Shown piece after piece: positions 1,558-26,898 of a stretch of DNA of 34,437 nucleotides; the first letter of the stretch is position 1; the number at the start of each line of letters is the position of its first letter. Origin of the DNA: Chloroflexota bacterium. GTDB lineage: Bacteria; Chloroflexota; UBA6077; SHYK01. The stretch covers positions 1-34,437 of the forward strand of contig WHTR01000029.1 of assembly GCA_009377635.1 (NCBI GenBank). Reading direction: 5' to 3'. The position numbers and the translations under genes are program-made. The notes beneath the pieces are model-generated. The model made no database searches, was not told the DNA's origin, and saw only the letters and a program-made list of their open reading frames with translations.

Positions 1558-3273
1558 ATGAATGCATGGAACCGGCTTGGTATCGTCTGGCTCGCCGTTG
1601 CCATGGCCATCGCGGCCTGTGCACCCGCGCAGAGCCCGGCAGCACCCGGTGTGCAGGTCTCGCAGCCCGATAGGCCGGGGGCCGTGAAGCGCATCACGGC
1701 CGCGATTCGGGGTAACCCACCGTCCGTCAGCATGGACGTCAATACAGCCGGCGGCAGCGGCCATATCCCGGGCGCCGACGAGCTCGAGGAGATCCTGAAC
1801 ACCCGCCTGAGCATGGTCGACAACAGCGGCATTCGGCATCCGCAATTGACCGAGACAGTGCCGACCGTGGACAACGGTCTGTGGAAAGTCCTTCCCGACG
1901 GGCGCATGGAGATGACGTGGAAGATCAAACCCCACGCCCACTGGCATGATGGAACGCCCTTTACCGCCGAGGATCTCGTCTTCTCCTATCAGGTGGAGGA
2001 AGACGACGAGATCGCGGCCTTCGGCGACTCCGACTACAAGTCGATCGAGCGCATGGAGGCGGCTGACCACGGCACTCTGGTCGTCTACTGGAAGCAGCCC
2101 TACATCTTCGCGGACGACATCTTCGACGTCTCGATCCTGCCCAAGCACATCCTGGGGACCGCATTTCTCAACGACAAGGCAAGCTTCACGCAGTTGCCGT
2201 TCTGGAAGCACTAGTACGTGGGCACCGGTCCCTTCGAGCTCCGCGAGTGGGTGGACGGCAGCTACGCCGTGCTTACGGCGTTCGACGACTATGTGATGGG
2301 CCGGCCGACGATCGATGAGATCACGGTCCGGTTCATTCCCGACCCCAACACCATGATCGCCAACATCCTGGCCGGGGAGATCGACCTGACCATGGGCCTC
2401 GGCATCTCTCTGGACCAGGCCATCGAGATGCGAGAGCAGTGGAAGGACGGGCGGGCCGACGTGGTCCTCTCCGGCTGGGTTGCCATTCATCCCCACCTGA
2501 TGTCGCCAGATCCGGCGGTCGTCGGAGACGCTCGATTTCGGCGCGCCCTGGTCCATGCCCTCGACCGCCAGGCGATGGCCGACACGCTCCAGTCCGGCAT
2601 GAGCACGATCGCCCACAGCTTCGTGGCCCCCAATCAGCCAGAATACAAGGATGTCGAGCCCTTCGTCGTCCGCTACGACTACGACCCACGGAAGGCCGGC
2701 CACATCATCCAGGACCTGGGGTACACCAAAGGGTCAGACGGGATCTTCCGCGACGGGACCGGCCAACGGCTCTCCGTCTCGGTTCGGACCATCGGCGGGT
2801 TCGACATCAACGAGAAGGCGGTCTTCCCTATCGCCGACAACTGGCAGCGGGTGGGGGTCGCCGCCGATCCATACATCGTCACGCGGGCCGAGGCGCGGGA
2901 TCGCGCGTTCCGCGCCAATTTCCCGGGCTTCGAGATGACGCGCGGCCCGAACTATATGGCCCGGCTGGCCATCTACCACAGCTCCCAGGCACGGGTGCCG
3001 GAGAACAACTATGTGGGCAGTAACTACATGAACTACATAAACGCCGAGTGGGACGCGCTCCTCGATCGCTTCTACTCGACCATCCCTGCGAGCGAGCGGA
3101 ACCAGGTGCTCGGCCAGGCGATGCAGCACATGACCGACCGGGTGATTGTGATGGGGACGGTCTACGACCTGGAGCTGTACCTCTTCGCGAACCGGCTGAA
3201 GAACGCCACGCCGCGGAACTCCAACGTGCGGTCGCCGCAGGCCTGGAACGCGCAGGAGTGGGACGTGCAGTGA
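1558..3273 (+). pseudogene. Peptide/solute ABC transporter substrate-binding lipoprotein (SBP family 5), interrupted by in-frame TAG
   Basis: The reading frame encodes a 571-residue family 5 extracytoplasmic binding protein, but codon 219 (2212-2214) is TAG. The two halves, 1558-2211 and 2215-3273, are in the same frame. The N-terminus is a lipoprotein signal, a hydrophobic run ending AIAAC with the lipidation Cys at residue 21. A strong GGAGGAGG lies 6 bases before the ATG. The intact paralogue at 30254 aligns throughout (YWGREFVGTGPF against FWKH-stop-YVGTGPF), and the stop sits where the paralogue has Glu (GAG), so one G-to-T change explains it. The second half could start at the GTG at 2218 but would lack a signal peptide. 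Either a young pseudogene, a base-call error or a readthrough site; I favour the first two. No permease or ATPase genes are visible nearby. Confidence 0.85.
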
Positions 3274-3476: not shown

Positions 3477-4754
3477 TCAGGCGAGTACGAAGGTATCCGG
3501 AACCATATGGGTCTTCCAGTGATCGCGCCAATCAGCCGAGTTCGGGATGACTTCCTGAAGCGATACAAGGTGGGACATCCGCTTCTGCTCCGGGTTGCGG
3601 ATCACGTGGGGCGGGTCGTTTCCGGCCTGCACCTGGCGAATCGCGCGCAACAACACCTCCCGCGCCTTGATGATGGCCCGGTCGGTGTACGCGACGTGCT
3701 CCTGAGACCGGTTCTGCATGCTCCCCGGGCTCTCCGTGGCCCAGTTGTCGTGGTTCTGGAAGACGGGTCCAAGCCCGGCGATACTCCTGACCTTCATCTC
3801 ATCGCGGTTCTGCAGATATCGATTCGCGCGCGACCGCAGATGATGGTAGTCCGGCGTCATCGTCTGGAGCATGTCCCGCTTCATCCTCGGGAGATCGAGT
3901 GGGCTCGAACCACGGTAAATCTGGAACTTCCAGTGGTGGGTGTCGTCGATCGGCACGTGCCAGCCGCCCTGCGTCGGGATCCCAAACCCGTTTGGGTAGA
4001 TGAAGTTGGTGACGCGCAGATACGTCTCGGACGGACTCGCTGTCCGGACCGAAAAGATGCGAACCCCATAGTCGGTTTCCTCGACCTCGAGCCGGGGCGA
4101 CTGGTCACGCCCGAACAGGGTATTCGACGAGATACCGGCGCCCTCAGGAGCGGAAAAAGCAGACGGCGCGAGGCGTGTATCGTCTTCCTTCATGAAGTGA
4201 TGCAGGTACGATAGGTGGGATGGGTCGATGTTCCCTTCGTTACTCTGTAGGTAGTTGCAATCGTGGAAGTACTTATGGGCAAACGTACACTCTTCGGGAC
4301 CGCTGATGAAGTAATAGTCTGGCAATTGCGGAGGGTCGCCAGGACCAAGGTATGCGAACACGATCCCGGCTCGCTCCAGGCACGGATAGGCCGTCTGGTG
4401 AATCCGCTCGTGGAAGGTCGAGCCCGCCGGTTCGCCCGGCTGCTCGAGGCAGCGGCCATTCATGTCGTACAGCCAACCGTGATAGATGCAGCGGAGCCCG
4501 CCATCTTCAAGCCGGCCGTAGCTCAGGTCCGCCCCGCGATGGGCGCAGTGCAGGCCAATGAGCCCAGGCTGTCCTAGCTCGTCGCGAAAGAGCACAAGCT
4601 CCTCGCCCAGCAGCTTGATCGGGACCGGCGCTCCGCCGACCGGCAGCTCTTCTGCCAGCGCCGCGGGCTGCCAATACCGGCGCAGCAGGTCACCACCAGG
4701 CGTGCCGGGCCCGGTGCGGGTCAACACATCATATGGCGACTGAGCTTGTGTCAC
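3477..4754 (-). CDS. Rieske [2Fe-2S] aromatic ring oxygenase, phthalate 4,5-dioxygenase-like, catalytic subunit
   Basis: A 425-residue non-haem iron oxygenase that would insert oxygen into an aromatic or related ring using electrons from a separate reductase. The Rieske cluster ligands are C70-x-H72 (CAHRGADLSYG) and C89-x2-H92 (CIYHGW). The mononuclear iron motif is D177-x2-H180-x4-H185 in NEGNIDPSHLSYLHH. The open frame extends to a GTG at 4772, but GAGGAGG lies 6 bases before the GTG at 4754, giving an N-terminus MTQAQSP that matches the length of the paralogue at 25552. I therefore chose 4754. It lies downstream of the extradiol dioxygenase gene on the same strand, 60 bases away, so the two are probably co-transcribed. 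No ferredoxin or reductase gene is present. The substrate is unknown. Confidence 0.92.
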   Translation of the reverse strand: MTQAQSPYDVLTRTGPGTPGGDLLRRYWQPAALAEELPVGGAPVPIKLLGEELVLFRDELGQPGLIGLHCAHRGADLSYGRLEDGGLRCIYHGWLYDMNGRCLEQPGEPAGSTFHERIHQTAYPCLERAGIVFAYLGPGDPPQLPDYYFISGPEECTFAHKYFHDCNYLQSNEGNIDPSHLSYLHHFMKEDDTRLAPSAFSAPEGAGISSNTLFGRDQSPRLEVEETDYGVRIFSVRTASPSETYLRVTNFIYPNGFGIPTQGGWHVPIDDTHHWKFQIYRGSSPLDLPRMKRDMLQTMTPDYHHLRSRANRYLQNRDEMKVRSIAGLGPVFQNHDNWATESPGSMQNRSQEHVAYTDRAIIKAREVLLRAIRQVQAGNDPPHVIRNPEQKRMSHLVSLQEVIPNSADWRDHWKTHMVPDTFVLA

Positions 4755-4814
4755 GAATGCCTCCTCAATCACGCTGCCCGCAGAAAATCCCGAACCATCG
4801 CGGCACCTCCGATT

Positions 4815-5828
4815 TCACAGCCACTGGGCGAAGCCCATGGCATTGCCCGTCCCCGCCTCCGAGCGATAACAGGGAATATAGTCGAGGAGCCGGACGTGCA
4901 GGTCGGTGCCGGCCATTGCCCCAGCGGTCGCGATCCAGTTGCGGGCCTCGGACGTGCCACCGTTGTAGAATTCGGCCGGTAGATTGCAGATCCGCTCGGC
5001 GTCCTCTGCCTGCAGCGCGTCCAGGAACTGCTGGTCCACGTCTTCTTCCACGACGAAGTGGCTCAACCCGCCTGAGGCGATCACGGCGACGGTCTTGCTC
5101 TCAGGCCAGGACTCGATCGCCCGGCGCAACGCCTGGCCGAACGCATAGCAGCGCTTCAGGCTCGGCTGATTGGGCGGGTAGAAGGTGTTGATGAACACCG
5201 GGACGTGGGGGATGACCTCGTCGTTCATGATCCGGCGGTAGATGAAGCCAAACGCGTGGGAGATGCCGTAGTTCTCCCAGCGCCCGGCCGGCAGGCGGCA
5301 AGAGTGTGCGACGTCGAACTCATCCTGCATCAACGACCCGATGATGTGGCGGCCGAGCCCTGGCTCGCCAGGGTGGGTCATCGGCACCGGTGGCCTTTGA
5401 CCCCAGTCGGCAATGGACTCACCCGGCGCCCGCCGCGCGCTCTGCTCCGCGGTGAGCGGCACGTTCTGAACGCTGTCGCCCCAGTACACCGCGAACGCCG
5501 GCATGTTGTCGTCTAGAAACGACTCGTGCTGATCGTCGCCAATGACCACCGCGACGTCCGGCGCGACTCGCTTCACGGTCGCGCTCAGCTCGGCAAGGCT
5601 CGTCTGACACGCCTCGTGACGCTGGGCCATCAACTCAGGCTCGAGCTGGTGCTCCACGTGCTCGTCGGCGCGGAGCTTCACGAGGTCGTCGAAACTGTGC
5701 AGCCCGCCCTTGAAGAACAGCTCAAAATGACCGTTTCGGTCCGCGAGTCCGCGCTGCCACCACTGGTCGGGCGGCGTGCTCAGTAGGGGGCCATGCGACG
5801 TTGCCATTCCCAGGACGATCCGTGCCAT
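4815..5828 (-). CDS. Class III extradiol ring-cleavage dioxygenase, LigB-type catalytic subunit
   Basis: A 337-residue LigB-superfamily protein, the catalytic (beta) type of protocatechuate 4,5-dioxygenase and relatives, which open catechol-like rings with Fe(II). H12 in MATSHGPLL matches the first iron ligand of LigB. A second His lies at 57/60 (DEHVEH), GDDQHE is at 98-102, and H191 in YGISHAFGF matches the position of the catalytic base. SGGLSHF follows near 252-258. Three starts are possible: TTG 5840, ATG 5834 and ATG 5828. I chose 5828 because it puts H12 in register and has GGAA 6 bases upstream. No separate LigA small subunit is seen. A hydrolase remnant lies upstream on the same strand and a Rieske oxygenase downstream, giving a hydroxylation, ring-opening and hydrolysis order. 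Confidence 0.9.
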   Translation of the reverse strand: MARIVLGMATSHGPLLSTPPDQWWQRGLADRNGHFELFFKGGLHSFDDLVKLRADEHVEHQLEPELMAQRHEACQTSLAELSATVKRVAPDVAVVIGDDQHESFLDDNMPAFAVYWGDSVQNVPLTAEQSARRAPGESIADWGQRPPVPMTHPGEPGLGRHIIGSLMQDEFDVAHSCRLPAGRWENYGISHAFGFIYRRIMNDEVIPHVPVFINTFYPPNQPSLKRCYAFGQALRRAIESWPESKTVAVIASGGLSHFVVEEDVDQQFLDALQAEDAERICNLPAEFYNGGTSEARNWIATAGAMAGTDLHVRLLDYIPCYRSEAGTGNAMGFAQWL

Positions 5829-5908
5829 TGCCATTTCCAATCTGGGGCGGGAGCCGCCCGATCATTCGTTCCTCGGTCAATCCGATAGAAGGGAGCTTCG
5901 ATCCGTCG

Positions 5909-7968: not shown

Positions 7969-8175
7969 ATGGGCCGATTCCTGCTTCTGGGACTCGTTGT
8001 GGGCACCGGCGTGATGCTCGCGCGGGCCACTGCATGGCGTGCGGGGCGCGAGCTAGCGCGTGACCTCTCCGACCAGCTTGTGCTGCGCGTATTGCGCATG
8101 ACCTCGGGATTCGCGAACGACGTGTCTAAGCCAACTCAAGAGGAAGAGCGCGACCGGCGACTCCGATGGCGGTAA
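7969..8175 (+). CDS. Small predicted membrane protein, translationally coupled to the SQR-like gene
   Basis: This 68-residue protein begins with one hydrophobic segment (FLLLGLVVGTGVMLA, residues 4-18), followed by a basic amphipathic stretch and a charged tail, so it looks like a single-pass or peripheral membrane protein. The ATG follows GGAG at 7960-7963 with 5 bases between. Its stop overlaps the start of the flavoprotein gene by 10 bases in a different frame, the usual sign of coupled translation. A TATGAT at 7894-7899 could be its -10 box. I do not recognise the family. A role as anchor or partner of the flavoprotein is inferred from position only. Confidence 0.55.
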   Translation: MGRFLLLGLVVGTGVMLARATAWRAGRELARDLSDQLVLRVLRMTSGFANDVSKPTQEEERDRRLRWR

Positions 8176-9158
8176 ACGGGCGCCAGCGGATCGTGGTGCT
8201 CGGCGGCGGGAGCGGTGGACTCGTCGCCGCGACTCGGCTGGGACGACGTCTGGGAGCCGACCACGAGGTCGTGCTGATCGATCGGAGCCCCGAACACGTC
8301 TACATGCCCTCGCTGCTGTGGGTGATGGTGGGACAACGCCAGCCGGGCGACATCACGCGCAAGCTAGCCCGGCTCGAGCACCGCAGCGTGCATGTCGTGC
8401 AGGCCCAGATCGAGGGCATCGAGCCGCATCGCCAGGAGGTGGTGACGTCCGGCGGACCCGTAGGATACGACCATCTCATCATCTCGCTTGGCCTGCAACC
8501 GGCTCCAGAGCAGATCCCGGGATTCGTGGCGGGGGCGGACCACGCGTGGGAGATGGGCGCGGCGCTGCAGCTCCGGGAGAAGCTCCGGCGTTTCGAACGA
8601 GGCCGCGTGGTGATCGCCGTCCCGCCCGGGCCCTACCGGTGTCCGCCCGCGCCCTACGAGACGCAGTACCTGCTCGACAGCTATTTCCGGGAGCGCGGCA
8701 TCCGCGAACGTGTGGAGATGACGTTCTACACGCGGGACCCCGCGCCGCGCGGGCCCTCCACGGACCCCTCGGTCTGGATGGACACGCAGGCGCGGGCGCG
8801 CGGGATCGGCCAGCATTACTCGTACTTCGTCGAGTCGATTGATCCCGAGCAGAAGGTCATGCACGGGCGCTACGGGCTAGACGTTCCCTACGACCTGCTG
8901 TTCATGATCCCGCCGCATCGGCCGGCGCAGCCCTTGATCGACAGCCACATCGCGGACAGCCTGATGGGTGTGCGTGTGGACTACGACACGCTCGAGACGC
9001 GGTGGGACAACGTTTACGCTATCGGCGACTGTGCCGATATGCCCGCGTCGAAGGCGGGGGTGGTCGCGCACCAAGAGGCGGACGTCGTGGCGCACAACAT
9101 CGAGGTGACGGTCACGAGGCGGGGACATCCGGAGACGCTGCGTCTCCACACCATGTGA
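8166..9158 (+). CDS. Sulfide:quinone oxidoreductase-like FAD protein (truncated by in-frame TGA)
   Basis: The 330-residue product is a two-dinucleotide-binding flavoprotein of the SQR/flavocytochrome c sulfide dehydrogenase type. The N-terminal FAD loop is VVLGGGSGGLVAATRL (10-25). A redox-Cys segment reads GPYRCPPAPYE. The C-terminal FAD motif is VYAIGDCADMPASKAG. Family members oxidise sulfide or related sulfur and pass electrons to quinone at the membrane; others in the superfamily have unknown donors. The frame ends at TGA 9156-9158, but the same frame continues with the family's C-terminal membrane-binding tail to 9320, listed separately. The start overlaps the small upstream gene. Without the tail the product may not dock to the membrane. 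Confidence 0.8.
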   Translation: MAVNGRQRIVVLGGGSGGLVAATRLGRRLGADHEVVLIDRSPEHVYMPSLLWVMVGQRQPGDITRKLARLEHRSVHVVQAQIEGIEPHRQEVVTSGGPVGYDHLIISLGLQPAPEQIPGFVAGADHAWEMGAALQLREKLRRFERGRVVIAVPPGPYRCPPAPYETQYLLDSYFRERGIRERVEMTFYTRDPAPRGPSTDPSVWMDTQARARGIGQHYSYFVESIDPEQKVMHGRYGLDVPYDLLFMIPPHRPAQPLIDSHIADSLMGVRVDYDTLETRWDNVYAIGDCADMPASKAGVVAHQEADVVAHNIEVTVTRRGHPETLRLHTM

Positions 9159-9320
9159 CTCCTCTCCTTTGGCGCCGGGCGCGCCGCCGCGAACCGCACG
9201 ACGTATCCGAACGGCTGGCCCCCGTTTGGCTCCGGGTCGTCCCGAAGCTGGGGGCCATCTCCCCTGATCTACTGGGCGAAGCTGGCCTTTGAGAAATGGT
9301 GGCTGTGGCGGTACTTCTGA
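9159..9320 (+). pseudogene. In-frame C-terminal tail of the SQR-like gene, cut off by the TGA at 9156
   Basis: After the TGA, 53 codons stay open in the same frame as the flavoprotein and end at TGA 9318-9320. They read LLSFGAGRAAA, then a Pro/Gly-rich link, then SPLIYWAKLAFEKWWLWRYF. That ending, an aromatic amphipathic helix with K and FEK, is the typical SQR C-terminus that sits in the membrane. The expected residue at the stop would be Cys or Trp, one base from TGA. Together with 8166-9158 this gives 384 sense codons, a normal length. This points to a single nonsense change or a sequence error. Confidence 0.7.
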
Positions 9321-9415
9321 GATTGTGGGCCTTCGGTGCGCCCGCGTGATGGGGGCGGACCCTCTCCCCCGCGCACACCACGGTTGCGAGGGAGGTTCTC
9401 AAGACGGAGGGGGCG

Positions 9416-10306
9416 ATGGCTGAGCTGAGCGGAATCATCTGCGCGTGCTTGACGCCGTTCAACGAGCGCGACTGCGTTGACTACGGCGCCCTCGAGCGCG
9501 AGATCCAGTATATCGTCGAAGAGTGCGGCGTCGACGCGATCTCGATCGCGGCCGTCGAGGCGGCGGAGTACACCCGCCTCACCATTGAAGAGCGCAAGGA
9601 TCTTCTCCGTAGGGCCGTGGAGATGGTGGATCGACGATTGCCGACGATCGCCGGGTGCTCGCACCAGAGCTTCCGGGTGGTAGGCGAACTATGTGAGTTC
9701 GCGGCCGGCATCGGAGCGGACTACGCGCAGGTGCTGATGCCCACGCTCCCATGGGGCGGCAATCCCGAGGGCGGAGAGCTGGTGGAGTACTTCACCGAGG
9801 TCGCAACGCGGAGCCCCCTGCCGATTGTGGCCTACCACAATCCGGGCCCCGGCGCCGACCCGGACTTCGCCACCTTCGTCAAGCTGAGCACGAACGCGCG
9901 GGTCCACTATTTCAAAGAGAGCTCGCGCGACACGCTCAAGATCGCGCGCATGATCGAGGAGATCCAGCGGGCGGGGAACGCGGGCTACTTCACGACGATG
10001 CAGCCACTGCTCATGACGCTGATGATGGGCGGCGCGGGCGCCACTATGCCGCCGCCGGGCGCCAAGATCGGCGCGCGAGTGGTCAAGGCGCATCGCGAGG
10101 GGGACTTCGACGAGGCTCACCGCTGGCAGCGGCTCTACGCGGCGTTCCCGAGCAAGTGGCCACAGTACGGACTTCCACCCGTGATGAAGGCGGCGCTCCA
10201 GGAGATCGGGGTGGACATCGGCCGTCCGGCGCGCCCTTACCTACCGGTCACCCCCGCCGACCGACTGCAGATCCGCGAGCTCCTCCGCGAAGCCGGCCTC
10301 CTGTAG
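9416..10306 (+). CDS. DHDPS/N-acetylneuraminate lyase family aldolase or hydratase, active-site residues intact
   Basis: A 296-residue class I aldolase-type TIM barrel. The catalytic Tyr is Y140 in PIVAYHNPGPG, and the Schiff-base Lys is K167 in HYFKESSRD. Members condense or cleave pyruvate with aldehydes, or act as hydratase-aldolases on ring-cleavage products. The usual GTTGE substrate loop is replaced here by VEAAEY (47-52), so dihydrodipicolinate synthesis is unlikely. The ATG follows a GGAGGGGG site. It converges on a paralogue at 10400-11380 with 93 bases between. In this context a role in breaking down an aromatic or sugar-acid product is plausible but unproven. Confidence 0.88.
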   Translation: MAELSGIICACLTPFNERDCVDYGALEREIQYIVEECGVDAISIAAVEAAEYTRLTIEERKDLLRRAVEMVDRRLPTIAGCSHQSFRVVGELCEFAAGIGADYAQVLMPTLPWGGNPEGGELVEYFTEVATRSPLPIVAYHNPGPGADPDFATFVKLSTNARVHYFKESSRDTLKIARMIEEIQRAGNAGYFTTMQPLLMTLMMGGAGATMPPPGAKIGARVVKAHREGDFDEAHRWQRLYAAFPSKWPQYGLPPVMKAALQEIGVDIGRPARPYLPVTPADRLQIRELLREAGLL

Positions 10307-10399
10307 CCAAAGGCTCACTCTGCACCGCCCTCGCCTCCCAGACGCTCCACTGACGATCTTCGAAGCGAGCTATGTTTGGCCCCGGGGGGATGCGACCGG

Positions 10400-11380
10400 C
10401 TAAGGCTTCCGGAGCAGCTCGGACCGCAACCCGATCGGGCCCAGCACGTTTTGGGGCGTCGGCGTGTCCTCCCCGGGCTCTTTGAGACCCACCTCCTCCA
10501 GGAACTGGCCGATCGCGGCCTCGTCCCACCGCGAGACCCGACCGTACGGTCGCGCCGGCTCGCCCAAATCGATCCCGAGGTGGCGCATGGCCACCTTCAT
10601 CACCGGCGGATTACCGTACCGGTACCACCGCCCAGGAAAAAGTCCGAGGATGCGCTGCCACTCGATCGCGCGCTCCCGGTCGCCCGCCCGAAATGCGCGG
10701 ACCACCTGTGCTCCCACGTACGCCGCGGGCGGTGGCATCGCTGCCCCCGATCCCCCCAGCGTGAGGTTGATGTGCAGGGAGGGGGCCGTGGTGAAGTAAC
10801 CGGCGCTCCCCCGCCGGTCGATCTCCTCGGCGAGGCGGCTGATCCGCGTGATGTCGCCCGAGGTCTCGATCACATAGGGCAGGTTAAAGATGTCGGCGAT
10901 GCGCAGGTAGAGGGGGATCGCGGGGTCAGCGCCGGGACCGCGGTTGTGCGACACGCACAGCGCGAGCGGACTGCGGCGAGCGACCTCGGCCACGTAGTCA
11001 TAGGTCTCGTCGGGATCCGGGTCGCCGCCCCACAGGCGAATCGGCATGACCGCCTCGACGACATCCGCGCCCGCCTCGGCGGCGTGGTGCGCCAGCTCCA
11101 CCGTTCGTTCAAGCGAGGGATGCGAGATCCCAGCGATCACGGGGATACGGCCGGCGACCATCTGCACCCCCTGACGGATCAGGGCGCCGCGCTGCTCCCA
11201 TGTGAGCACGCTGTACTCGGCATCCTCGGTCGCGCCGATGGCGATCGCGTCAGCATGGCAGACCTCAATGATGTAATCGATCTCGAGCTCGAGCGCGCAG
11301 AGATCGACCTCGCCGTCGTCGGCGAAGGGCGTCAGGCAGGTCGCGATAACACCACGGATCGCGGGGGTCGAGTCACCCAT
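10400..11380 (-). CDS. DHDPS-family paralogue lacking both the catalytic Tyr and the Schiff-base Lys
   Basis: A 326-residue homologue of the gene at 9416, alignable along its whole length (SLERTVELAHHAAEAGADVV, LWGGDPDPDETYDYV, MPPPAAYVGAQVVRA). Where the neighbour has AYHNPGPG this protein has VSHNRGPG (Tyr to Ser at 144), and where it has YFKESS this one has YVIETS (Lys to Ile at 171). Classic Schiff-base chemistry is therefore not possible. The rest of the barrel is undamaged and the frame is clean, so it looks like a maintained gene. The open frame runs to 11611, but GGGAG lies 5 bases before the ATG at 11380, which I chose. A GATAAT (minus strand, 11442-11447) could be its -10 box. It has about 24 extra C-terminal residues. 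It could be a regulatory partner or a repurposed enzyme. Confidence 0.85.
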   Translation of the reverse strand: MGDSTPAIRGVIATCLTPFADDGEVDLCALELEIDYIIEVCHADAIAIGATEDAEYSVLTWEQRGALIRQGVQMVAGRIPVIAGISHPSLERTVELAHHAAEAGADVVEAVMPIRLWGGDPDPDETYDYVAEVARRSPLALCVSHNRGPGADPAIPLYLRIADIFNLPYVIETSGDITRISRLAEEIDRRGSAGYFTTAPSLHINLTLGGSGAAMPPPAAYVGAQVVRAFRAGDRERAIEWQRILGLFPGRWYRYGNPPVMKVAMRHLGIDLGEPARPYGRVSRWDEAAIGQFLEEVGLKEPGEDTPTPQNVLGPIGLRSELLRKP

Positions 11381-15589: not shown

Positions 15590-16612
15590 ATGCAATCTGT
15601 TCGGGCGCGCGAGGGCGTGCAGAACCTGGTGAAGGAGTGCGCCGAGGTCAAGGAAGGGGAGCGGGTGCTCATCCTGAACGAGATCGGCAAGGTCGACCCG
15701 GAGATCGCGGATCTCGTCGCGGAGGCGGTGAAGGCCGCGGGGGCCGAGTACCACGTCCTCTGGGGCGAGAGTGTCGAGCGCGGCCGGAAAGAGATCCCGA
15801 GCGTTCTCCTCGGCGCCTTTCTCGCGGCGGACAAGGTCATCGCAAACTATGCCCTCAACCGCGCGGCCCTGGACGCCCACATCCGGGGAAAGGGGATCGT
15901 GCAGGTCAACAACGGCTGCCGCACCGCCCAACAGATGAGCACGCCCCACGCAACCTTCAACTGGGGAATGGTGAAGACCATCTACTCGCGCCTGGAAGAG
16001 ATCTTCAGCGAGGGCGAGCGCTGGCGCATCACGTCCCCGGCTGGCACCGACATCTCCGGCCGCGTCGGCAAGGGGAGCGACGTGGCCGACGCCTACTTCG
16101 CGGCGGAAGCTGAGGCCTCGCGGTTCATTCGCGTGTTCCCCGGCGAGGTGTACACGCCAGTGGGCTCGGTCGACGCCGAGGGGACTATCGTGACCGAGTA
16201 CATCAACATGCGGGACACCGCGCCCTGGGAGCAACCGGCCGTTCTCACGGTGCAGGGCAACAGGATCGTAAAGGTCGAGGGCGGCGATGAGGCGAAGCGG
16301 TTCGAAGCCGAGATGGAAGCAAACGTCACGCGCTTCGGCGAGAACGCGACCGTCATCGACTCCTGGCACGGCGGCATGAGCCCGAAGGCGCGGGTCCCGA
16401 CCGAGGAGAACCGAGCACTTGCAGGCGCGACCAGCGGGGCCGCGATGATGCACTTCCACGCGGGGCGCATCCTCGAGCCCGTCTCGGCTGGGATCCTGTT
16501 CCACACCATCGAGGTCGACGGACGAAAGCTCTACGAAGGCGGCAAGCTCTTGATCCTCGACGACCCGAAGATCCAGGAGGCGGCCCGCCGCTCTGGCATA
16601 GAGGATTTCTAA
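15590..16612 (+). CDS. M29-like metalloprotein (leucyl aminopeptidase/2,5-dihydroxypyridine dioxygenase NicX superfamily)
   Basis: A 340-residue protein of the fold shared by peptidase M29 aminopeptidases and the ring-cleaving dioxygenase NicX. The conserved Glu block is FPGEVYTPV (E186). Other likely ligands are H260 in DSWHGGMSP and H305 in ILFHTIEVD. In NicX and M29 enzymes the last His belongs to an H-x-D pair, and here the sequence is H-T-I, so the Asp ligand appears absent. The ATG follows a GGAGGAGGT site. It converges with the SDR at the end of the minus-strand operon. A broken copy lies at 13826. A ring-cleavage role would fit the locus, but peptidase or another hydrolase activity cannot be excluded. 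Confidence 0.75.
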   Translation: MQSVRAREGVQNLVKECAEVKEGERVLILNEIGKVDPEIADLVAEAVKAAGAEYHVLWGESVERGRKEIPSVLLGAFLAADKVIANYALNRAALDAHIRGKGIVQVNNGCRTAQQMSTPHATFNWGMVKTIYSRLEEIFSEGERWRITSPAGTDISGRVGKGSDVADAYFAAEAEASRFIRVFPGEVYTPVGSVDAEGTIVTEYINMRDTAPWEQPAVLTVQGNRIVKVEGGDEAKRFEAEMEANVTRFGENATVIDSWHGGMSPKARVPTEENRALAGATSGAAMMHFHAGRILEPVSAGILFHTIEVDGRKLYEGGKLLILDDPKIQEAARRSGIEDF

Positions 16613-20137: not shown

Positions 20138-20384
20138 TAGACCATTCCCTATCTGGCCAGCCGAGCCAACCCGACCTGTCCGAAAACCGTCCGGATTGTC
20201 TTGAGCCCGCCGTCACCTAGACCGTGGCAGCGCCGAAGTTTGAGGAGAGAAAGCTCTCCGGCCCCCCGCGCCGCGCTCATTCTATCACTGTCGCTGATGT
20301 GGGGGCCGACGAGCGTCGCGGTCGAGCGCGGGGTCGCATTGGGTATGATGTCACGACCGTCGCGTTCACCTCATGGAGGGCAGA

Positions 20385-21815
20385 ATGGGCTTTCATGACC
20401 TTCGGGCGTTCATAGCCGAGGCCGATCGGCAGGGCATGCTACGGCGTATCGAAGGCGCGCACTGGGACCTCGAGATCGGCGCCATCGCCAAGATGCTGCA
20501 CGATACGCCGGCCAATCCCGTCGTGCTCTTTGACAGGATCCCCGGCTATCCACCCGGCTTCCGGGTGCTGAGTAACCATCAGAACAACGTCAAGAAGCTC
20601 GCGCTGGTCGAGGGGTTCTCTCCGGACGACAGCCCGATGGAGATCATGCGCCAGCTCAAGGAGAAACGTCGCAAGGGTGTTCCGCTGATCCCGCCGAGGG
20701 AGGTTGCGGACGGACCCGTCCTCGAGAACCGCGAGGAGGGCGAGAACGTCGACGTCCTCACGTTTCCGGTACCCCGCTGGCGGACACTCGACGGTGGCCG
20801 CTACATCGGGACCGGGACCGTTGTGATCAACCGCGACCCGGACGGCGACTGGGTGAACGTCGGTACCTACCGACAGATGGTGCACGATGCGAAGACGCTG
20901 GGTTTCTTCGTCGAAGACCAGCACCATGGCAAGATCATCGCCAAGAAATACTGGGCGCGAGGACAGGCCTGCCCGGTGGTCGCGTGCTATGGCCAGGAGG
21001 TCGAGCTGTTCCGAGCATCCACCGGCAGCTCCCCGTGGGGACGCTCAGAGCTCGAGGTTGCCGGAGGTCTCAAGGGTGAGCCGATCGACGTGGTCAGCGG
21101 CCCGGTGACCGGACTCCCGATCCCGGCCCGGGCCGAGATCGCGATCGAGGGCGAGGTCCCCCCGCCCGATGTGGATGCCCGTCCCGAGGGACCGTTTCGC
21201 GAGTGGCCCGGCTACTACACGCAAGAGTCGGCGCCTCAACCGGTCATTCGGGTGAAAGCCGTGTATCACCGCAATGATCCAATACTCACCGGGCCGCTCG
21301 GGAACGACCGCAACGTCATCGTCGATGGGACCCACCATGCCTCCACTGCCGTCTGGGAGGCATTGGAGCGCACGGCCCTCCCCGGAATTCGCGGCGTCTG
21401 GGACCACTGCAACGGACTCTTCATCGTCATCTCGCTGGAGCAGCAGTTCGCCGGCCACGCCAAGATGGCCCTGCTGACCGCTACGTCGGCCCATGGCTCC
21501 GGCAGCGCTTACCGCTACTACGTCGCCGTCGACGACGACATCGATCCATCAAACCTCACCGATGTGCTGTGGGCCATGACGACCCGCTGCGTGCCGGAGA
21601 ACCAGATCGACATCGTGCGGAGCACGTTGAGCGCTCGTATTGACCCGATCGTCAGCCCGATGAAACGAGCGATCGGCGATCTGACCTGCGACCGCGTGCT
21701 CATCGACGCCTGCAAGCCGTGGGATTGGAGAGAGCAGTTCGGCAAGTCGATGACCTACACGCCCGAATATGAGCGGGAGATTCGTGAAAAATGGCGCCCG
21801 GCGCTGATGGGCTGA
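20385..21815 (+). CDS. UbiD-family decarboxylase (prenyl-FMN dependent)
   Basis: A 476-residue UbiD-type protein. These enzymes reversibly (de)carboxylate aromatic or alpha,beta-unsaturated acids with prenylated FMN and Mn/K. Visible signatures are GGRYIGTGTVVI (138-146), N158-x4-R163 in VNVGTYRQM, and the glutamates around E268 and E273 in PEGPFREWPGYY. Length is normal. An ATG at 20373 is in frame, but GGAGGG ends four bases before the ATG at 20385, which I chose. A TATGAT at 20344-20349 may be the -10 box. The ornithine-cyclodeaminase homologue follows 56 bases downstream. The flavin prenyltransferase UbiX is not in the window. A UbiD fragment lies at 25202. Confidence 0.92.
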   Translation: MGFHDLRAFIAEADRQGMLRRIEGAHWDLEIGAIAKMLHDTPANPVVLFDRIPGYPPGFRVLSNHQNNVKKLALVEGFSPDDSPMEIMRQLKEKRRKGVPLIPPREVADGPVLENREEGENVDVLTFPVPRWRTLDGGRYIGTGTVVINRDPDGDWVNVGTYRQMVHDAKTLGFFVEDQHHGKIIAKKYWARGQACPVVACYGQEVELFRASTGSSPWGRSELEVAGGLKGEPIDVVSGPVTGLPIPARAEIAIEGEVPPPDVDARPEGPFREWPGYYTQESAPQPVIRVKAVYHRNDPILTGPLGNDRNVIVDGTHHASTAVWEALERTALPGIRGVWDHCNGLFIVISLEQQFAGHAKMALLTATSAHGSGSAYRYYVAVDDDIDPSNLTDVLWAMTTRCVPENQIDIVRSTLSARIDPIVSPMKRAIGDLTCDRVLIDACKPWDWREQFGKSMTYTPEYEREIREKWRPALMG

Positions 21816-23446: not shown

Positions 23447-23913
23447 ATGCTGACGAAAGAAGAAAATACGCTGCTTTGCTCCGTGGGCGCTGAAACACCG
23501 GCGGGCCAGCTCCTGCGTCGCTGCTGCCTCGCTGGGACATTGTTGGGCGCGAGGACTGGGTACGCCGCATTGAGCTGCACCCGCCGCTCGATTGCAATTG
23601 GCTCCAACCGATGGAAAATGCCGTCGATCCGGAGCACCTCTACTGGCTGCACGGCTGCACCGGGGGGGCGCCCAGCACGCAGGACGAATACAGCGACTTC
23701 GAGTTGTTCGAATACGGAATCTACAAGTACCACTACGGCGAGGGGCGGGTCGAGGTGCACCCCCTCGTGTTTCCGAACATCCTCCGCGGACCGGGCAACG
23801 TCGCGCACTTCCGCATTCCGGTAGATGACACCCACACCGGTATTCTGTATGTGATCTACAACCCCACGCCGGACGGCGGACCGGGCCATCAAACTGAGGT
23901 GCCATATGTGTAC
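23447..23913 (+). pseudogene. Rieske oxygenase gene with its [2Fe-2S] domain deleted
   Basis: ATG 23447, preceded by GGAGG, opens MLTKEENTLLCSVGAETPAG and QLLRR, the standard N-terminus of phthalate-dioxygenase-type subunits. At about 23515-23525 the sequence jumps, in another frame, to LPRWDIVGREDWVRRIELH and PPLDCNWLQPMENAVDPEHL, which begins the catalytic domain with its Asp-x2-His-x4-His iron site (DPEHLYWLH). The whole Rieske cluster domain, roughly 130-150 residues by comparison with the copies at 3477 and 25552, is missing. The catalytic part continues through IPVDDTHTGILYV to about 23913 and then merges with the next oxygenase gene. It cannot make a working oxygenase. Confidence 0.75.
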
Positions 23914-23944
23914 ATCGGCGCCATCACTCGGCGGTCAGGGGGAC

Positions 23945-25123
23945 GTGATCAACCCACTGTGGACCGTACACAACTCGGCGTACTCGGCCACTGCGTTCGC
24001 GCTCGAGCGCGAGCGTATCCTGCGCCGCGTGTGGACCTTTGTCTGCCATAGCAGCGAGCTGCCGGAGGTCGGCAGCTTCCTGACGCGCCAGGTTGCCGGC
24101 GATCCGATCGTGCTCGTCCGCACCGGCGCGGAGACCATCCGGGCATTCCACAACGTCTGCCGCCACCGCGGGAGCCTCGTAGTCTCCGAGCCATCGGGCA
24201 CCGGCAAGGGCTTTCGTTGCCCGTACCACCACTGGGCGTATTCAATGGAAGGCGAGCTGCTCGCCCTCCCAGGCGAAGACGCCTATGCGGGTTCTGGTTT
24301 TGTGAAGTCGCAGACTGGTCTGGTGCCGCTGCGGGTCGATCTCGCCTGCGGACTCGTGTTCGTCTGCCTCGATCCAGACGCTCCGCCGCTACACGACTAC
24401 CTGGGGTCCGACCTGCTCGCCGTACTGGAGGCGCCACTCGGAGAGGCAAGCTACGAGATATTCCACTATGACTCCTGGCTGCTGAAGGCGAACTGGAAGC
24501 TCTTCGCAGAGAACGGACGCGATGGCTACCACGTCCCCTTCGTTCACCACACGTTTCTCGGCAAGGCGAGCCCGCCGCAGCCGTACCGGCTTTTTCCGAC
24601 CGGTCACGCCGTCCAGCACGTCACCTGGGCACACGATGCAGTCGACGAGGAGACATGGCGACAGACGACCCGGTTCCCCCTGCCCGGATTTCAGCCCGGC
24701 GATGGTTGGATCGTCAACATCTTCCCGGACGTCGTGGTGATGGCCCGCACGAGCGTGGTGGAGATCCTCTCGCAGGTCCCGCTGACGCACGAAGAGACGC
24801 TCTACGAAGTGCGGGTGCTTGGACTGAAGGGCGACTCCGAGGAGGCGCGCGTGTGTCGCCGCCTGGCGTTCCAAACCTGGCTCCAGACCCAACAGCCCGA
24901 GGACAAGCAGGCAATGGAGAACCAGCAGTGGGGGCTCGTCTCACAGAGCGTGCGCACCAGTATCATCGCGCGCGGCGTGGACGCGACCACCGGCATCCGA
25001 GGCGACGACAACCGGCTGCGTCAGTTCTGGCAGGTCTGGCGCTCCATGCTGGGCACGGACCGCAACGCTGTGCCGGAGGGAGGCTCCCAATCCGCGACGT
25101 GGCCGGGCGAGTCGCGCTTGTAA
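23945..25123 (+). CDS. Rieske aromatic-ring-hydroxylating oxygenase, alpha subunit
   Basis: A 392-residue alpha subunit of a different Rieske subgroup from those at 3477 and 25552. The cluster ligands are C72-x-H74 (NVCRHRGSL) and C92-x2-H95 (CPYHHWAYS). The mononuclear iron site is D193-x2-H196-x4-H201 in DGYHVPFVHH. The N-terminal FALERERILRRVWTFVCHSS is typical. The frame extends to 23906, but that part overlaps the preceding relic. GTG 23945, with GGGGGAC just before it, is a better start. The last 10-15 codons overlap an SDR fragment in another frame and may be a novel tail produced by a rearrangement. No beta subunit or reductase is seen. Confidence 0.85.
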   Translation: MINPLWTVHNSAYSATAFALERERILRRVWTFVCHSSELPEVGSFLTRQVAGDPIVLVRTGAETIRAFHNVCRHRGSLVVSEPSGTGKGFRCPYHHWAYSMEGELLALPGEDAYAGSGFVKSQTGLVPLRVDLACGLVFVCLDPDAPPLHDYLGSDLLAVLEAPLGEASYEIFHYDSWLLKANWKLFAENGRDGYHVPFVHHTFLGKASPPQPYRLFPTGHAVQHVTWAHDAVDEETWRQTTRFPLPGFQPGDGWIVNIFPDVVVMARTSVVEILSQVPLTHEETLYEVRVLGLKGDSEEARVCRRLAFQTWLQTQQPEDKQAMENQQWGLVSQSVRTSIIARGVDATTGIRGDDNRLRQFWQVWRSMLGTDRNAVPEGGSQSATWPGESRL

Positions 25124-25201: not shown

Positions 25202-25531
25202 CTACTATTTCTGATTTGGAATGAGCTGGAGCGTGCTGGCGTCCCGGACGTGCGTGGCGTCTGGTACCACGAAGCCGGCCAGCGGTTCTGGCTGGTGATT
25301 TCCATCAAGCAGCGCTACGACGGTCACGCCAAGCAGGCGCTGGGCATCGCTGCCTCCTGCACCAATAGCGCCTATATGGGCCGCTAGCGCAAGGGCCGCA
25401 ACTCCAAGGCGCTCGTAAACGCATGCCGGCCTTACAGCTGGCTCGACCGCTTCCCGCGCGTCGCGGAGGCCAGTCCAGATCTCCAGGCCGCCGTGCGCCG
25501 GAAGTTCGGCGATATCCTGGCAGACGAACGG
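25202..25531 (+). pseudogene. C-terminal remnant of a UbiD-family decarboxylase with an internal deletion
   Basis: The frame reads WNELERAGVPDVRGVWYHEA and ISIKQRYDGHAKQALGIAA, matching VWEALERTALPGIRGVWDH and ISLEQQFAGHAKMALLTA of the intact UbiD at 20385. After AYMGR comes TAG (25385-25387), and in the same frame the tail KALVNACRPYSWLDRFP matches LIDACKPWDWREQFG. About 75 residues between these blocks, including the VDDDIDPSNL region, are missing. The piece is joined at its left to an SDR fragment and at its right runs into the ribosome-binding site of the next Rieske gene. Confidence 0.75.
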
Positions 25532-25551
25532 GACAACAGAGAGGAGGAACA

Positions 25552-26898
25552 ATGGTCTCTACGCGCGAGAACGAGCTGCTGACGCAGACCGATCCGGGCA
25601 CACCCGGGGGTAAGCTGCTTCGCTGCTACTGGCAGCCGGTCGCACTGAGCGAGGAGCTCCCGGCAGAGGGCGCGCCCCTTCCCGTCCGTATCATGGGCGA
25701 GGATCTGGTCCTCTTTCGCAATGAGTCCGGTGACCCTGGACTACTCGGCCTCCATTGCGCCCACCGCGGCGCGGACCTCAGCTACGGCCGCCTCGAGAAT
25801 GGCGGACTCCGCTGCATTTATCACGGCTGGCTCTATGACGTACACGGCACCTGCCTGGAGCAGCCTGGCGAGCCCAGCAATAGCTGGGCCCATTCGGGTG
25901 GCCGTGACTCGATGCAATCCTCAACCCTGGAGGCCCAGACCGCGGAACGGAGCAGGCCCTTCCACGAGCGCATCCACCACACCTCCTACCCGTGTCAGGA
26001 GGTGGGCGGGCTCGTTCTCGCGTTTATGGGGACGGGCGACCCGCCGCTGCTGCCCGACTACGAGTTCCTCACTGCGCCGGACAGTCACCAATGGGTGACG
26101 AAGACCCACCAGGAGTGCAACTACCTGCAGGGGAACGAGGGCAACATCGACCCGGTGCACCTCTCGTTCTTGCACCGGATCTTCACTCCCGAGAGCGATG
26201 CCGCCTTCACCGCGAACGACACCTGTCCGACTCTCGAGACCGAGGAGACCGACTTTGGCGTGCGCATCTACGCCGTACGCAAGGTCGGCGTCGATCGCCA
26301 GTACGTTCGCGTCACGAACTTTATGATGCCGAACCTCGCAGCGGTTCCGGGCGGGCGCAATGGCTACAACGCCAACTGGCACGTCCCCATCGACGACACA
26401 CACCACTGGCGGTACGACGTCCGGCTGACGCTGGGGCGCCCGTTGAATCCCGAGGAGATCCTGCGGGGCCGAGCGGAGACCGATCCGCCCTACCACATGA
26501 TCCGAACCAAGGCGAATCGGTACCTGCAGGACCGTGAGGAGATGAAGACCAAGACCTTTCTGGGGATGGGACACGCCTTCCAAGCGCACGACAAGTGCGC
26601 GATCGAGGGCCCCGGCCCGATTCAAGACCGCACACAGGAACGCCTCGGCTACACCGACCGAGGGATCGTCGCGGCCCGAAAAATGCTTCTGCAGGCGCTG
26701 CGCGACGTGCAGGAGGGGCGCGATCCACCGCATGTCCTGCGCGAATCCCCTGCGGTACCTAGCCTGGTGGTCCGCGCACAGATCATCCCCGCCGGCACGG
26801 GCTGGCGACGCTTCTGGGAGCGTGAGGACGCGTCACTCGACCCCAGGTGCTCCAGCGATCGCTCGACGATGGGGCAAATCGCCTCCTGCACGGCATGA
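25552..26898 (+). CDS. Rieske [2Fe-2S] aromatic ring oxygenase, phthalate 4,5-dioxygenase-like, second intact copy
   Basis: A 448-residue paralogue of the minus-strand gene at 3477. The cluster ligands are C69-x-H71 (CAHRGADLS) and C88-x2-H91 (CIYHGW). The iron site is D200-x2-H203-x4-H208 in NIDPVHLSFLH. Relative to the other copy it carries an insert of about 25 residues after LEQPGEP (108-136). The last 15-20 residues (CSSDRSTMGQIASCTA) do not resemble the family and may be readthrough into foreign sequence after a lost stop. The open frame reaches 25423, but GAGGAGG precedes ATG 25552. The intact N-terminus MVSTRENELLTQTDPGTPGG supports that start. No reductase is linked. Confidence 0.92.
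   Translation: MVSTRENELLTQTDPGTPGGKLLRCYWQPVALSEELPAEGAPLPVRIMGEDLVLFRNESGDPGLLGLHCAHRGADLSYGRLENGGLRCIYHGWLYDVHGTCLEQPGEPSNSWAHSGGRDSMQSSTLEAQTAERSRPFHERIHHTSYPCQEVGGLVLAFMGTGDPPLLPDYEFLTAPDSHQWVTKTHQECNYLQGNEGNIDPVHLSFLHRIFTPESDAAFTANDTCPTLETEETDFGVRIYAVRKVGVDRQYVRVTNFMMPNLAAVPGGRNGYNANWHVPIDDTHHWRYDVRLTLGRPLNPEEILRGRAETDPPYHMIRTKANRYLQDREEMKTKTFLGMGHAFQAHDKCAIEGPGPIQDRTQERLGYTDRGIVAARKMLLQALRDVQEGRDPPHVLRESPAVPSLVVRAQIIPAGTGWRRFWEREDASLDPRCSSDRSTMGQIASCTA

Follow-up and report, generated by a model that had tools for sequence, protein, structure and literature searches.

A lysine-less DHDPS-family paralogue facing a lysine-bearing copy in Chloroflexota: a possible pseudo-aldolase

Introduction

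The Schiff-base lysine is the defining feature of the DHDPS/NAL superfamily. A 34,437-nucleotide contig from an uncultured Chloroflexota bacterium (WHTR01000029.1, here called the window), part of an 84%-complete metagenome-assembled genome of 3.5 Mb, carries two facing genes of this superfamily, and one of them encodes a protein without that lysine. A lysine-less paralogue kept under selection beside a lysine-bearing copy is a natural pair, and it raises the question of what replaces covalent catalysis; regulation, ligand binding and new chemistry are the candidates. The automatic name 'dihydrodipicolinate synthase family protein' would mislead for the lysine-less member.

The convergent pair

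The plus copy occupies positions 9416-10306 on the plus strand and encodes 296 amino acids, whereas the minus copy runs on the minus strand from its ATG at 11380 to its stop at 10400 and encodes 326 amino acids. The two genes converge, with 93 bp between the facing stops. Both proteins match Pfam DHDPS (PF00701) above the cut-off of 22.1 bits, the plus copy with 92.7 bits (E=2.3e-26) and the minus copy with 83.2 bits (E=1.7e-23) over residues 9-292, and they align with each other end to end at 46-48% identity. Tyr140 and Lys167 of the plus copy align with Ser144 (TCG) and Ile171 (ATC) of the minus copy. At the end of barrel strand 5, codons 144-147 (10940-10951, minus strand) thus read Ser-His-Asn-Arg in place of Tyr-His-Asn-Pro, and at the end of strand 6, codons 171-174 (10859-10870, minus strand) read Ile-Glu-Thr-Ser in place of the Lys-Glu-Ser-Ser motif. 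A sequence-only reading of the window had described such a convergent pair with these four residues and a clean, fully alignable minus frame; coordinates and aligned residues agree with it, and the minus frame is open in a second genome as well. A single-base or assembly error at the two sites was considered and set aside, because the Ser and Ile codons are each more than one substitution away from Tyr and Lys codons, and the loss recurs in that second genome.

Structure prediction places both proteins in the same fold. The AlphaFold2 model of the plus copy is a barrel with a pLDDT of 92, and that of the minus copy is a (beta/alpha)8 barrel (pLDDT 86.3, pTM 0.87) in which positions 144 and 171 lie at the ends of strands 5 and 6. 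The top Foldseek matches of the minus model are DHDPS/NAL structures: 3na8 (E 4e-22), YagE 2v8z and B. anthracis DapA-2 1xky.

Family membership

By descent and predicted fold, with a full-length PF00701 match, the minus copy belongs to the DHDPS/NAL superfamily. It falls outside the class I (Schiff-base) pyruvate aldolases, with neither the lysine at the end of strand 6 nor the tyrosine at the end of strand 5. With its catalytic residues lost, its predicted fold retained and its sequence under purifying selection, it has the marks of a pseudoenzyme. The plus copy is presumed from its sequence to be an active aldolase or lyase, with no substrate assigned.

Neither copy is DapA (EC 4.3.3.7), judging from sequence comparison. 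The NCBIfam dapA model gives 62.8 bits for the minus and 77.5 bits for the plus copy, both below the cut-off of 206, and an ordinary DapA is encoded elsewhere in the genome (contig C332; 295 bits to PF00701; GTTGE motif). Aligned to that DapA, both copies lack equivalents of Thr44/Thr45 (the Thr-Thr-Gly motif), Tyr107 and Arg138, residues named in the E. coli DHDPS active-site list of PMC3369909. The earlier label of a DHDPS-family pair holds for PF00701 membership, but even the plus copy is no normal DHDPS.

The plus copy represents a subfamily (9416-10306 in the window; loci L011-L039) that keeps the lysine and the tyrosine and has a conserved AVEAAEY motif. Since this motif takes the place of the absent Thr-Thr, Tyr107 and Arg138, the substrate of the subfamily probably differs from that of DapA.

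Distribution and descent

A second GTDB scan together with genome searches gave 34 distinct members of the plus-type subfamily besides the two minus genes, spread over at least four phyla (Acidobacteriota, Binatota/'Deltaproteobacteria', Chloroflexota and Actinomycetota). Tyrosine and lysine are both present in all 34, so their loss in the minus type is derived.

Among the genomes searched, the minus type is known from two. The second is G011, a genome from the same Chloroflexota family but another genus, whose minus orthologue shares 66-67% protein identity with that of the window and has Ala144 (GCC) and Leu171 (CTC). The loss is thus no accident of one genome. The sequence-only reading had asked whether Ser and Ile are conserved among homologues, and had held that homologues with Tyr and Lys would point to a recent inactivating mutation. 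The exact residues vary (Ser/Ala and Ile/Leu), while the loss itself and the class of residue are kept, and the orthologue lacks both catalytic residues. In G011 the minus gene likewise faces a plus orthologue (77% identity to the window's plus copy) in convergent orientation, with the same FAD gene upstream of the plus gene as in the window. The gap between the G011 pair (L007 15238-16302) is 1065 bp and holds one additional reading frame, which encodes a plus-strand protein of about 270 amino acids with no Pfam match. Another genome of the family, G013, has the plus type without the minus type, and G012 and G014 have a DapA-like gene only.

Beyond these two genomes, no further minus type was found in the whole class (29 genomes), in a 400-genome sample of the phylum, in 27 genomes with plus-type genes, or in three more samples of 375-393 genomes; the larger phyla were covered in part. 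A search of IMG/VR for the minus type gave no match, the first GTDB scan gave none and the second gave plus types only; no plasmid relative exceeded 38% identity. In the tree the two minus sequences form a clade with full support (100/100), set off by a long stem of 1.1-1.2 changes per site. A one-clade constraint on the four sequences, which bears on a duplication of the plus gene within the lineage, was neither rejected nor favoured (p-AU 0.139).

Selection on the minus gene

Comparison of the two minus genes showed identities of 0.76, 0.80 and 0.51 at the first, second and third codon positions. NG86 dN/dS is 0.29 in the minus pair, compared with 0.17 in the plus pair and 0.21 in the FAD pair; these values are rough because dS is saturated. 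At the protein level, the minus copies of the two genomes are 66% identical, close to the 70% of DapA, with 77% for the plus copies and 69% for the FAD gene. On these comparisons the minus gene clearly behaves as one under purifying selection and not as one in decay, and the dN/dS near 1 that the earlier reading had named as a warning sign did not appear. A recent pseudogene was rejected on the shared loss in the G011 orthologue and this constraint. Since the loss recurs in a relative of another genus and selection persists, the gene appears to be not dead but functional, its product having taken on a different role.

Remodelling of the pocket

The changes in the minus type are concentrated where catalysis would take place. 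A column counted as conserved when 17 or all 18 of the plus-type rows had the same residue, which gave 111 columns, and the pocket was defined as 39 barrel-mouth columns (strand ends plus the five residues after them, from the model secondary structure). Both minus proteins deviate at 20 of the 111 columns, 15 of 39 at the barrel mouth versus 5 of 72 elsewhere (Fisher p = 1.3e-4). The same test of the plus pair against the remaining rows showed no such bias (1/40 in the pocket, 5/81 elsewhere). The earlier remark that nothing else looked decayed overlooks 13 more conserved residues that have changed at the barrel mouth.

At seven of these 15 pocket positions both minus proteins have the same new residue (Thr14, Leu116, Arg147, Thr173, Gly175, Ser201 and Ala214), and at most of the others they have similar ones. 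Between the minus orthologues the pocket is 73% conserved and the rest 67% (p=0.43), whereas in the plus pair the pocket is 91% conserved and the rest 75% (p=0.007). This loss of pocket constraint would fit a loss of catalysis better than a new catalytic centre, and it offers mild evidence, from two sequences, for the former over a new active site.

Gene neighbourhood

The conserved neighbour of the plus copy is an SQR/FCSD-like FAD oxidoreductase (8166-9158, plus strand), with Pyr_redox_2 and FCSD_central domains and sulfide:quinone oxidoreductase relatives in the PDB. An SQR/FCSD-like FAD gene adjoins a plus-type DHDPS-like gene at 25 loci in several phyla (8166-10306 in the window), and in many of these loci the upstream genes include one for a PF04199 cyclase and one for a diiron protein of CADD/haem-oxygenase-like type. 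We found no description of this conserved cluster.

The window also holds a catabolic gene island (68-33122) with three Rieske oxygenases (3477-4772, 23906-25123 and 25423-26898), a LigB-type dioxygenase (4815-5840), UbiD (20373-21815), three Amidohydro_2 proteins, two glyoxalase-fold proteins and two ornithine cyclodeaminase-like proteins. The coding sequence of a family 5 solute-binding protein is broken into two adjoining plus-strand frames (1558-2214 and 2218-3273), likely through a frameshift or assembly error. A 340-amino-acid protein (15590-16612) has no match in Pfam, NCBIfam or the PDB, and its relatives lie near a plus-type gene in G013 and L023.

Possible roles of the minus protein

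Our tentative preference, at a little under even odds, is that the minus protein is a lineage-specific pseudo-aldolase that serves in binding, regulation or structure, perhaps assembled with the plus copy into mixed oligomers. It would be a paralogue of a DHDPS-family aldolase with a predicted intact (beta/alpha)8 barrel but without the ability to form the Schiff base, and as a pseudoenzyme it would most likely join or regulate the plus oligomer or sense the ligand of the plus copy. The double loss and convergent pairing in two genera, the selection, the pocket-centred replacement and the predicted barrel all support it. Against it, the seven identical pocket changes could mark a site newly evolved for catalysis or binding. 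The two genes converge and are not co-transcribed, so that assembly in fixed proportions is not an obvious outcome, and the two orthologues known come from metagenome assemblies and have saturated dS. The main rival is an enzyme in the same barrel with new chemistry that does without a Schiff base, drawing on the acids Glu52, Glu55, Glu172 and Asp176 and the new Arg147. The four acids are invariant in 20/20 aligned rows, and Arg147, Gly175, Thr173, Ser201, Asn205 and Ala214 occur in both orthologues and depart from the residues of the subfamily. However, conservation between the minus orthologues is not significantly higher in the pocket than outside it, unlike in the plus pair, and no obvious new metal site or alternative catalytic set is seen; we regard such an enzyme as a serious but rather unlikely candidate. 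Its more specific form, in which Arg147 and the retained acids make up a new catalytic centre that carries out another reaction amid aromatic-degradation genes, is unlikely.

A ligand-binding or sensor protein that acts independently of the plus copy and makes use of the emptied aldolase pocket would agree with the kept predicted fold, the remodelled pocket and the many transport and catabolic genes around it, but the pairing with the plus copy in both genomes hints at a pathway that the two share, which makes this role improbable. We give very little credence to a gene that was inactivated recently and is now decaying. In its favour, the ancestor of the subfamily is presumed to have carried Tyr and Lys, as the 34 other members do, and the stem of the minus clade is long, yet the loss common to two genera, the open frames, the pattern of codon-position identities, the rough dN/dS and the DapA-like identity all speak against it. 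The minus protein might also retain residual class I activity, non-covalently or through another amine. Point mutants of E. coli DHDPS at K161 are described as 'largely impaired', not dead (PMC3369909, citing Soares da Costa 2010), so the earlier claim that class I chemistry is ruled out, which has the loss of both residues on its side, is slightly too strong. Still, most conserved residues near the lost tyrosine are gone too, and a weak remnant would not account for long maintenance; residual activity is highly improbable.

Comparison with known systems

With the DHDPS/NAL superfamily (PF00701; DapA, NAL, KdgD, YagE and HOGA), the minus protein shares the fold and end-to-end homology, but it lacks the Schiff-base lysine, the tyrosine and equivalents of Thr44/Thr45, Tyr107 and Arg138. 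Its nearest kin, the plus-type subfamily, is about 50% identical and has the GPGADP, GGSGA-MPPP and E-x-x-E-Y motifs in common with it, yet the tyrosine and lysine found in every one of those members occur in neither minus protein. In searchable papers, with subscription papers mostly uncovered, we found no natural lysine-less or pseudoenzyme member of the superfamily, which is weak evidence for the novelty of this loss.

L-2-keto-3-deoxyarabonate dehydratase (KdaD) has the conserved superfamily tyrosine replaced by Glu and is grouped with the Schiff-base lysine enzymes (PMC13398020). It resembles the minus protein in that the tyrosine can be replaced within the superfamily, and differs in that the minus protein has also lost the lysine. 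For the preferred pseudo-aldolase, the closest parallel would be plant PDX1.2, a non-catalytic paralogue that acts on PDX1.3. In PDX1.2 key active-site residues are not conserved, the protein positively regulates vitamin B6 biosynthesis, and its complex with the active partner PDX1.3 has been solved (PMC6829848). That pair belongs to the PLP synthase family of plants and has a proven interaction, whereas the Chloroflexota pair is read from its genes.
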